Positions 1-4,231 of a stretch of DNA of 41,987 nucleotides are shown here, piece after piece (the first letter of the stretch is position 1; each line of letters begins with the position of its first letter). The notes beneath the pieces were generated by a model. The model was not told the DNA's origin. It searched no databases and was given only the letters and a program-made list of their open reading frames with translations. The translations under genes were made by a program, and so were the position numbers. Source of the stretch: Deltaproteobacteria bacterium (lineage in GTDB: Bacteria; Desulfobacterota; Desulfomonilia; UBA1062); NCBI GenBank assembly GCA_015486075.1, contig WFSG01000049.1, positions 1-41,987 of the forward strand. The letters run 5' to 3'.

Positions 1-87
1 AGGTACAAACATGAGATGCTCCCAATCCCGGCGCGGATAGAGAGTGCTCTTCGACAAGGCGTGGTGCGTGGTGCGTTTCCTGAGATC
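1..87 (+). pseudogene. Truncated 5' fragment of a DAPG-hydrolase-like cassette gene
   Basis: These 87 bases are identical to 1999-2085, codons 6 to 34 of the complete gene at 1984-2754. Identity stops abruptly at 88. The frame runs on through unrelated sequence to a stop at 121-123, so only the first part of the gene survives here and its start lies left of the window. It is most simply a second copy of the same cassette, broken by a later insertion or deletion. Perfect identity suggests a recent duplication. Confidence 0.8.
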
Positions 88-90
88 GGA

Positions 91-121
91 AAAGAAGGGG
101 TCAGGTCTCCACATTTGACAT
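91..121. repeat. REP-like sequence at the truncation point
   Basis: The stretch has a GGGGTCAGGTCT core followed by ACATTTGACA. From memory, this resembles the REP-like tails that accompany REP-associated tyrosine transposases (RAYT, IS200-like) in many Desulfobacterota and Nitrospirota genomes. No transposase gene is in the window. It starts three bases after the 87-bp duplicated gene fragment ends, which fits insertion of a small mobile sequence or a recombination scar. The family assignment is from memory only. Confidence 0.35.
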
Positions 122-197: not shown

Positions 198-204
198 GTT
201 AGGC
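198..204 (+). other. Possible residual attC R' box
   Basis: GTTAGGC fits the integron R' consensus GTTRRRY and lies 14 bases before the first cassette gene, as in the two complete sites downstream. No matching RYYYAAC half is visible upstream. If real, it is the right half of an attC whose left half was lost with the rest of the preceding cassette. A 7-base match alone is weak evidence. Confidence 0.3.
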
Positions 205-218
205 CATGGAAGATTAAT

Positions 219-1019
219 ATGGCAAAACAACAATTCACACCTGTCTCAAAGTCAGAATTAGATCCATGGCGGGTAATTTTGGGACATTTATTTGAACTCG
301 ACAGTTACTACATTCCTAAGATCATTGACAAAACTGGAATGGTGGTAGATTGGACTCTGACAGAACGGGAAGACTACTCGCATAAATATAGGAAAGCAGC
401 GTATCGGCCGCGTATCAATGCCGTGTATGATTCGCTTTCGGAGCAAGACCGCCTCCGAGTCGCTTACATTGTAGCCTCCAAACTGGCTGATATGGGCTGT
501 GCAGATGCCCTAAACGCCAACCTCGAAGAAATAGGCTGGCGGATTGAACAAGGACGTTTAACCCCCACTAGGACAGATGTTAAGGAGCTTTTCTTTCCCA
601 AAGACACACAGCATGATGCCTATATAGAAATTAGAAAACTATTTCAGAAAGCTAAGGGTTCAATTACAGTCGTTGACCCATATATCGATAGCTCAATATT
701 CATAGTTCTGGGGACTATTTCATCGTTATCTTTAAAGGCGAGATTGCTAACCCACGAAATTCCGAGCGACTTTACTCAGGAAGCTCGTAAATTTCTTGCC
801 CAACACACCAATTTTACTCTTCAAGCTCGAAAGTCCAAAGAATTCCACGACCGATTTGTTATAATCGACGATGATGAATGCTGGCATGTGGGTTGTTCGA
901 TTAAAGACGCTGGTAACAAGGCCTTCATGTTGAGTAAGATAGAGGACAACGTAAATAGAGAGGCATTAATTACTCAACTCGATAAGAGCTGGGCAAAGGC
1001 TGAAATAATAAATTTATAA
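219..1019 (+). CDS. PLD-like (HxD-type) protein in an integron cassette
   Basis: The product is 266 residues. The N-terminal 120 residues are mostly helical with no domain I can name. The C-terminal half looks like a single phospholipase-D-type fold: a core strand VVDPY at 151-155, then H210-D211-R212 followed by FVIIDD, and GCSIKDAG at 225-232. Classical PLD has HxK with a downstream D or N; here the Lys is replaced by Arg (HDR). That variant occurs in proteins linked to abortive infection and other defence genes, as I recall, so nuclease or phosphodiesterase activity is plausible but unproven. There is no signal peptide. The ATG has GGAAGA seven bases upstream. An attC site follows four bases after the stop. 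The gene is the first intact cassette of the array. Confidence 0.8.
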   Translation: MAKQQFTPVSKSELDPWRVILGHLFELDSYYIPKIIDKTGMVVDWTLTEREDYSHKYRKAAYRPRINAVYDSLSEQDRLRVAYIVASKLADMGCADALNANLEEIGWRIEQGRLTPTRTDVKELFFPKDTQHDAYIEIRKLFQKAKGSITVVDPYIDSSIFIVLGTISSLSLKARLLTHEIPSDFTQEARKFLAQHTNFTLQARKSKEFHDRFVIIDDDECWHVGCSIKDAGNKAFMLSKIEDNVNREALITQLDKSWAKAEIINL

Positions 1020-1023
1020 AAGG

Positions 1024-1080
1024 GCCTAACAATGCATTCCAGCGGACGGTTAACCCCGCCGCTGAATTTAGTCGTTAGCC
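1024..1080 (+). other. attC recombination site 1
   Basis: GCCTAAC at 1024-1030 matches the R'' consensus RYYYAAC and GTTAGCC at 1074-1080 matches R' GTTRRRY. Between them, CCAGCGG (1039-1045) and CCGCTGA (1058-1064) can pair, giving the imperfect folded hairpin typical of attC, with a short central loop. At 57 bases it is in the usual size range for short attC sites. It sits between the stop of the PLD-like gene and the next gene, as expected for a cassette boundary. Confidence 0.85.
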
Positions 1081-1093
1081 TATAAGGATCAAC

Positions 1094-1894
1094 ATGCTGA
1101 CAAATTTAGACAAGTACAAAAGTGATCTCGATTCATTGATCAAACTCGGTAGAACAATGGAGTTAGATCTTACTTTTAGACACTTAGAGGAAGAAGACCA
1201 GTTGTCTGCGGAAGAAAAGAAGACCTTTAGGAAATTCAAAGGTTCTTTTGAAAAGCACTATCAACGCTGGTATACAGAATCCACAGCAATAGTTAGGCAA
1301 TTGCTCCCCAACAGACTCATAGAGTTTGAACAACTCTACAAGGGCGATGGCAAGAGAAAAGAGATTAACAGTACTACCTACAATGTGCAGGATTGGCTTA
1401 ATGGCATTCGCGCTGGATTAAATAACTTTACGGGAGAGAAATATTACAATGATTTTGCAGTGGTATCGATGCGATTCCATACGCAATTAGAGATACTAAA
1501 ATCCGTCAAAGCTCGTTTTGAAAGTTCTCTATTTGATATCCGTCAAGTTGTACAAGCGGACCTGTTTGATTCAGAGCTTGATGCGGCAGGGGAACTAATA
1601 AAGCATGGTTTTCTGCGAGCTGCTGGAGCAATTGCTGGCGTTATTTTAGAAAAACATCTCGCGCAAGTTGCAGATAACCATAATATTAAAACTCGAAAGA
1701 AACACCCAACAATAAGCGATTTCAATGACCTACTCAAGAACGGTGGCATTCTTGATGTTCCTTCATGGCGTCAAATACAAAGGTTAGGAGACATCCGAAA
1801 TCTGTGTGATCACAACAAAGATAGAGAACCGACGAAAGAAGAAGTTGAAGAGCTTGTGGAAGGAGTAGATAAGCTTACAAAAACATTATTTTAA
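1094..1894 (+). CDS. HEPN-domain protein in an integron cassette
   Basis: The product is 266 residues and mostly helical. The C-terminal third (about 155-266) has the layout of a HEPN domain and ends with R235-N-L-C-D-H240, an Rx4H motif that forms the RNase active site in HEPN toxins and effectors. The first 150 residues are charged helices without a recognised domain. HEPN RNases occur in toxin-antitoxin, abortive-infection and CRISPR-associated systems. In a cassette with no obvious antitoxin partner, a solitary defence or toxin role is an inference. AAGGATC precedes the ATG. The stop lies three bases before attC 2, so gene and site form one cassette. There is no signal peptide or membrane segment. 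Confidence 0.75.
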   Translation: MLTNLDKYKSDLDSLIKLGRTMELDLTFRHLEEEDQLSAEEKKTFRKFKGSFEKHYQRWYTESTAIVRQLLPNRLIEFEQLYKGDGKRKEINSTTYNVQDWLNGIRAGLNNFTGEKYYNDFAVVSMRFHTQLEILKSVKARFESSLFDIRQVVQADLFDSELDAAGELIKHGFLRAAGAIAGVILEKHLAQVADNHNIKTRKKHPTISDFNDLLKNGGILDVPSWRQIQRLGDIRNLCDHNKDREPTKEEVEELVEGVDKLTKTLF

Positions 1895-1897
1895 AAA

Positions 1898-1957
1898 GGC
1901 TAACAAGCACATCCAGGCGACGGCAAAAAAAGCCGCGCCTGATGTTTGTCGTTAGCC
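1898..1957 (+). other. attC recombination site 2
   Basis: GGCTAAC at 1898-1904 is the R'' box and GTTAGCC at 1951-1957 is the R' box. Inside, ATCCAGGCG and CGCCTGAT pair around ACGGC and GCCG arms with an A-rich tip. The two outer boxes are complementary to each other (GGCTAAC/GTTAGCC). The 60-base length and paired inner arms are typical of attC. It separates the HEPN cassette from the DAPG-hydrolase-like cassette. Confidence 0.87.
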
Positions 1958-1983
1958 GCCAATGAAGAGTGAGAGGAATCACA

Positions 1984-2754
1984 ATGAAAAATTTAGAGAG
2001 GTACAAACATGAGATGCTCCCAATCCCGGCGCGGATAGAGAGTGCTCTTCGACAAGGCGTGGTGCGTGGTGCGTTTCCTGAGATCACGTGCGCTTCTCAG
2101 GTTTTTGCAGAATGGGGCCAGTACTCTGATCGTGTCATTCGTGCCGAAACCGGCCATATCATGGTGGCATGTACCACGGATTTACCTGGCGTTACCCCCC
2201 AAATGATCGACTGGTGGTTTGGCTGGCACTTGCTGGAGTCAGAGCGCTATAGGCTTTGGCATCCGTTAGCTCATGTTCGAGCGCGAGTTAAGGAAGACCG
2301 CTCGAAATTGGGTAGTAATCGCAGGAGATACATAGGGAATGTGTCATATGTTGATGAGTACATTGGAAAGAAGTTAATGCATCTTGCAATCGCGTTTTTT
2401 GATCCAGAGGAAATTGGGCTAAGTCACGTCTATGAGGCAAGTGCAACGGCCATTTGCGCCAGAACGTCAGATCGGGTCTTGAACGTAGACGCAGGGCACT
2501 TGGTCCACTTGGTGTCCCCAACCAGTACGGGTAGTGAGATGAAAAGTGTGTTCTGGCTTGGCGACCTCAACCCGAAATGGCCTTTAGTTGGTGCGCTGAT
2601 AAAGCCGGTGCTGAACACGGAAACTATCCGTAAGTTTTTTGTTACCAACAGCATGGCAACTGACCTGCTTCGACATTGTGCAGAAGAAATGAACCATCTC
2701 CCACGATTCTTACCAGCGTTATACCAGGAGATTGGCGAACGGTATGTGGGCTAA
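1984..2754 (+). CDS. 2,4-diacetylphloroglucinol hydrolase-like protein (PhlG fold)
   Basis: The product is 256 residues. It carries hallmarks of the DAPG hydrolase (PhlG) family: W77-WFGWH82 and YRLWHP ending near H93 in the first half, and H231-C-A-E-E235 near the C-terminus, matching the HxxxE zinc ligands of PhlG. PhlG cleaves a carbon-carbon bond of the antibiotic 2,4-diacetylphloroglucinol; the wider family acts on other acyl-phenolic compounds, so the substrate here is open. The ATG at 1984 is preferred over an in-frame GTG at 1969, because GAGAGGA lies seven bases before it. The TAA stop overlaps attC 3. The first 87 bases from codon 6 are duplicated exactly at the left edge of the window. 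Confidence 0.8.
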   Translation: MKNLERYKHEMLPIPARIESALRQGVVRGAFPEITCASQVFAEWGQYSDRVIRAETGHIMVACTTDLPGVTPQMIDWWFGWHLLESERYRLWHPLAHVRARVKEDRSKLGSNRRRYIGNVSYVDEYIGKKLMHLAIAFFDPEEIGLSHVYEASATAICARTSDRVLNVDAGHLVHLVSPTSTGSEMKSVFWLGDLNPKWPLVGALIKPVLNTETIRKFFVTNSMATDLLRHCAEEMNHLPRFLPALYQEIGERYVG

Positions 2755-2796
2755 CCATTCGCTGCAGGCGCGACGGCCTGAGCTCAAACGCTATAC
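2749..2796 (+). other. attC recombination site 3, degenerate R' box
   Basis: GGCTAAC at 2749-2755 is a good R'' box and overlaps the stop codon of the preceding gene. GCTGCAGG and CCTGAGC form the inner arms. The expected R' box at 2790-2796 reads GCTATAC, two mismatches from GTTRRRY. The site is therefore decayed and may no longer recombine. It marks the right end of the recognisable array. Confidence 0.6.
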
Positions 2797-4137: not shown

Positions 4138-4231
4138 ATGAATCGAGAAAAAACTGAAAACGCGAACAAACTGGACAGTAATGCGCATGAAGCCCGATGA
4201 ATTCATGGTGAAGCCGGTAAAGAAAAGGCTC

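Follow-up and report, generated by a model that had tools for sequence, protein, structure and literature searches.

A short integron gene-cassette array, probably of the integrase-less CALIN type, at the start of a contig from a Deltaproteobacteria bacterium

Many arrays of integron gene cassettes are known that have no integrase of their own, and IntegronFinder classes such an array as a CALIN when it has at least two attC sites and no integrase (PMC9024848). The authors of IntegronFinder 2.0 caution that CALINs are overcounted in draft genomes, since contigs tend to break at repeated attC sites (PMC9024848). With regard to the sites themselves, a study of five integrases found that T-N6-G sites were excised efficiently by all of them, with some exceptions for VchIntIA (PMC3053210). 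Compared with CALINs as described (PMC9024848), the array reported here is alike in having at least two attC sites that each follow a single gene on the same strand, and no integrase found in the genome, and is unlike them in lying at a contig edge and in the decay of its last attC site. Since at least two attC sites are present and no IntI is found in the assembly, we class it, with good but not complete confidence, as a short integron gene-cassette array of the CALIN type. The array is real but ordinary, one more well-supported case of a known gene-trading element, and it comes from an environmental lineage in whose family IntI integrons occur. Of greater use, as a by-product, is the family of its second cassette, in which a gene with a HEPN motif occurs as a gene cassette in several phyla.

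The window, meaning the whole stretch of DNA analysed (41,987 bases), is contig C49 from base 1, and the array touches the contig start. The assembly (G000) comprises 2.3 Mb in 49 contigs, with 100% completeness and 0.11% contamination. Three plus-strand genes occupy the first 2.8 kb of the window, and the remaining genes include those for a multihaem cytochrome, a hexapeptide-repeat protein, two tRNA-synthetase-family proteins, EF-G, glutamine synthetase and the carbamoyl-phosphate synthase large chain. The synthetases, EF-G and the carbamoyl-phosphate synthase bear out the preliminary description, in which the array was said to lie inside a housekeeping region. An empty insertion site was sought by way of the downstream hexapeptide gene, and the neighbourhood of its closest homologue, in a relative from the same family (G005), was not syntenic. 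Copies of GTTAGCC near the ends of contigs C27, C35 and C41 were considered as further arrays and rejected, being found beside coding, rRNA or tRNA sequence instead.

Two of the sites are complete and lie on the plus strand: attC1 at 1024-1080 (GCCTAAC-AA-N7-CAGCGG-A-CGG..CCG-CCGCTG-N9-GTTAGCC) and attC2 at 1898-1957 (GGCTAAC-AA-N7-CAGGCG-A-CGGC..GCCG-CGCCTG-N9-GTTAGCC). They have a common layout of left core, AA, seven bases, six-base stem arm, A, short terminal stem, second arm, nine bases and GTTAGCC, begin 4-5 bases past the stop codon of the preceding gene, and are near one another, with 874 bases from start to start. Their bottom strands fold better than shuffled sequences (z -3.67 for attC1 and -5.43 for attC2) into hairpins with paired outer cores, an inner stem and bulges, in which a T and a G are extrahelical and six bases apart (T-N6-G). 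Both are genuine attC sites, and their geometry predicts that IntI would recombine them. The positions given for them in the preliminary description were exact, whereas its account of the site ends as RYYYAAC and GTTRRRY holds for the left core of attC1 (GCCTAAC) and fails, on a strict reading, for the left cores of attC2 and the third site, attC3 (GGCTAAC in both), and for all the right cores (GTTAGCC, GTTAGCC and GCTATAC); AAC and GTT are nonetheless intact in attC1 and attC2. Because the right cores and the left core of attC2 deviate from the consensus, a strict text search for RYYYAAC...GTTRRRY missed all three sites and returned chance pairs only.

An Rfam scan of the window gave zero matches, and covariance models were therefore built anew. 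The first model, R1, was made from attC1, attC2, one Omnitrophota site and the aadA7 attC. Of the 59 other genomes that it was run on, ranging from the same genus to the same phylum, 32 gave attC-like sites; the matches include regular arrays adjoining IntI in three family relatives (G007, G019 and G020). The second model, R2, was made solely from 17 attC sites at the IntI-bearing loci of these three genomes. In the window R2 gave attC1 60.3 bits (E 1e-13) and attC2 62.8 bits (E 2.3e-14), and on the 2.3-Mb genome, at E<=10, it matched these two sites and attC1 reversed (E 9.7) and nothing more, with a mild circularity in that attC1 and attC2 were both part of R1, which chose the R2 training sites. 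The training sites are true attC sites on separate grounds, because they are regularly placed beside IntI. The arrays of these three relatives resemble the present one in attC length, spacing, bulge positions and inner-stem sequence (CAGCGGACG), and are unlike it in having an adjoining IntI, in having many more attC sites in two of the three, and in a right-core consensus of GTTAGGC rather than the GTTAGCC found here. The attC site of aadA7, a class 1 integron cassette, has the same core-AA-N7-stem6-A layout and T-N6-G bulges as attC1 and attC2; it differs in its stem sequence and cores, and it belongs to a resistance gene as opposed to the present cassette genes. In G005, in which IntI was not detected, single attC-like sites were seen on contigs C183, C71, C257 and C314 (L077-L080), and two of these sites are close to the end of their contig.

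The left end of the window shows that the array, or decayed array material, extends leftward past the contig start, since both a second, truncated cassette-3 gene start and a cassette edge are found there. The truncated copy (1-87, plus strand), within which the contig begins, is an exact match to 1999-2085 and the sole second copy in the genome; this 87-bp repeat may have caused the contig to break there. The edge is a GTTAGGC (198-204, plus strand), read directly as the right core of a lost upstream attC and the left edge of cassette 1, 15 bases ahead of gene 1; no left core matching it was found upstream within the contig. A probable remnant of a mobile repeat (GGGGTCAGGTCTCCACATTTGACAT; 97-121, plus strand) resembles an arm of a palindromic repeat in a family relative. 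This arm, GGGGTCAGGTCTC(C/A)ACAT(T/A)TGACA, is found at 97-121 of the window and at 4165 (plus strand) and 1782 (minus strand) of L084, an IntI-bearing contig of that relative, where it is present as a full palindrome.

No IntI over the TIGR02249 cut-off was found in the assembly, in which the array lies at a contig end, in agreement with the earlier description of an array without an integrase in view; the intI and attI of a complete integron are not seen beside the array. The two closest TIGR02249 matches, weak and split, on contigs C18 and C5, were examined as IntI candidates and rejected: one is XerD, over its own curated cut-off, and the other is a XerC-like gene beside hslV, just under the XerC cut-off. 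Of the 23 other genomes of the family, 11 have an IntI over the cut-off, as do 19 of all 60 genomes searched.

As the contig begins within the array, this could also be the tail of a complete chromosomal integron, with its IntI-attI end beyond the break on the left and absent from the assembly. We consider this unlikely. Contig breaks at repeated attC sites do inflate CALIN counts in drafts (PMC9024848), and here the array reaches the first base of the contig, where the 87-bp repeat sits at the break; in related genomes of the family, IntI is accompanied by arrays with many attC sites, and an integrase could adjoin the array in unassembled or unbinned DNA. Against this, IntI over the cut-off is lacking from every contig of the 100%-complete assembly and attC sites from every contig but this one. 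One further genome of the genus was searched (82% complete), and the attC search and the IntI search of it both listed no match. The preliminary description had offered both a CALIN and the tail of an array starting left of the window, and that pairing is upheld by the presence of at least two attC sites, the lack of IntI in the assembly and the contact of the array with contig base 1.

Each cassette is made up of a single plus-strand gene with its attC site behind it. If the array is a CALIN, as we favour, the cassettes would have been inserted by IntI, either from an integron that the host has lost or supplied in trans. The family relatives that still have IntI and arrays would be in line with a lost host integron. 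At present the cassettes are likely to be immobile here, but an incoming IntI could still act on the folded bottom strands of attC1 and attC2, on either side of cassette 2; it probably could not act on attC3, which is decayed. Since promoter-like signals are no more frequent than in shuffled sequence, the cassette genes may be expressed by read-through.

The third site, attC3 (2749-2796, plus strand), has a left core GGCTAAC that contains the stop codon of gene 3, a 5-bp stem (CAGGC/GCCTG) and a right core GCTATAC, in which the crossover GTT is lost; its terminal stem and T-N6-G are absent. R2 gave it 18.3 bits (E 0.022) in the window and did not list it among the genome-wide matches (E<=10), and the fold of 2752-2798 was no better than that of shuffles (z +0.2). 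It is a decayed or hybrid attC, at the position where a third, degenerate site had been proposed, and it is weak. It may have arisen at a junction, by an exchange of the right core immediately behind the G, but simple mutation of a GTTATAC-like core would explain it just as well. The claim that each site follows one plus-strand gene likewise stood, the third by way of the stop codon inside its left core. That the three sites are terminator hairpins or chance palindromes between operon genes is very improbable, for although G+C-rich stems directly follow each stop codon and the cores deviate from strict GTTRRRY, no T-run terminator was called at the three sites, model E-values near 1e-13 go with conserved AA, spacer lengths and bulges, and a moving unit has its ends at core sites, and the R2 scores refute this reading for attC1 and attC2; attC3, taken alone, might be of that kind.

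The gene of cassette 1 (219-1019, plus strand) encodes 266 amino acids, the C-terminal half of which resembles PDC-S05 of PADLOC, a candidate anti-phage protein (E 2.4e-29), and weakly a PLD-like domain; this half is joined to an N-terminal half that is matchless. No homologue of it was confirmed in viral contigs. The gene of cassette 3 (1984-2754, plus strand) encodes 256 amino acids from the ATG, with an in-frame GTG at 1969, and belongs to the DAPG/phloretin hydrolase (PhlG) family (Pfam PF18089, E 3e-48; PDB 5xe5, 5xey and 3hwp). A search next to the distant homologues of cassettes 1 and 3 revealed no attC. Among 395 genomes of the phylum, the present one included, cassette 1 has homologues in 12, cassette 2 in 5 and cassette 3 in 9, a patchy spread that is consistent with horizontal gain.

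The gene of cassette 2 (1094-1894, plus strand; 266 amino acids) contains the motif RNLCDH (HEPN R-x4-H), invariant in nine homologues. A Pfam search with its protein gave nothing over the cut-off, and the best PDB matches of its predicted structure (pLDDT 84) were HEPN domains, at Foldseek E-values above 0.1. A homologue in a genome from another family of the same phylum (G259) has 89% DNA identity to it over exactly 1074-1906, from the GTTAGCC of attC1 to the GGCTAACAA of attC2, such that two families of the phylum share the same cassette ends. The KSB1 and Omnitrophota homologues likewise have their start after a GTTAGCC and their end at a GGCTAAC, and the one in Omnitrophota (L010) is flanked by two attC sites belonging to a run of four. 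Judged from these alignments, the bounds of cassette 2 are those expected of a mobile gene cassette. The array might be a small defence stock, in which a PDC-S05-like candidate anti-phage protein accompanies a putative RNase with a HEPN motif, the gene of the latter moving among several phyla (this one, Omnitrophota and KSB1) as an integron cassette, and in cassette 2 environmental integrons would have a single-gene anti-phage or toxin cassette of a kind not described before; we offer this idea tentatively and regard it as rather unlikely.

The KSB1 homologue (L009, 6866-7660) has a stop codon within the matched stretch, and this copy may be broken. The unit in G259 lacks the inner part of its attC, with GGCTAACAA followed only by six bases and GTTATAC, and R2 found no attC site at this locus; the attC there is seemingly reduced to its two cores. 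The unit in G259 (C12:20016-20813, minus strand; L114) lies between two copies of a repeat of about 100 bases (GCTAACAAAGA..GTTATA.., then AAAGCCGTCCGGGG..CCGGGCGGCTTT).
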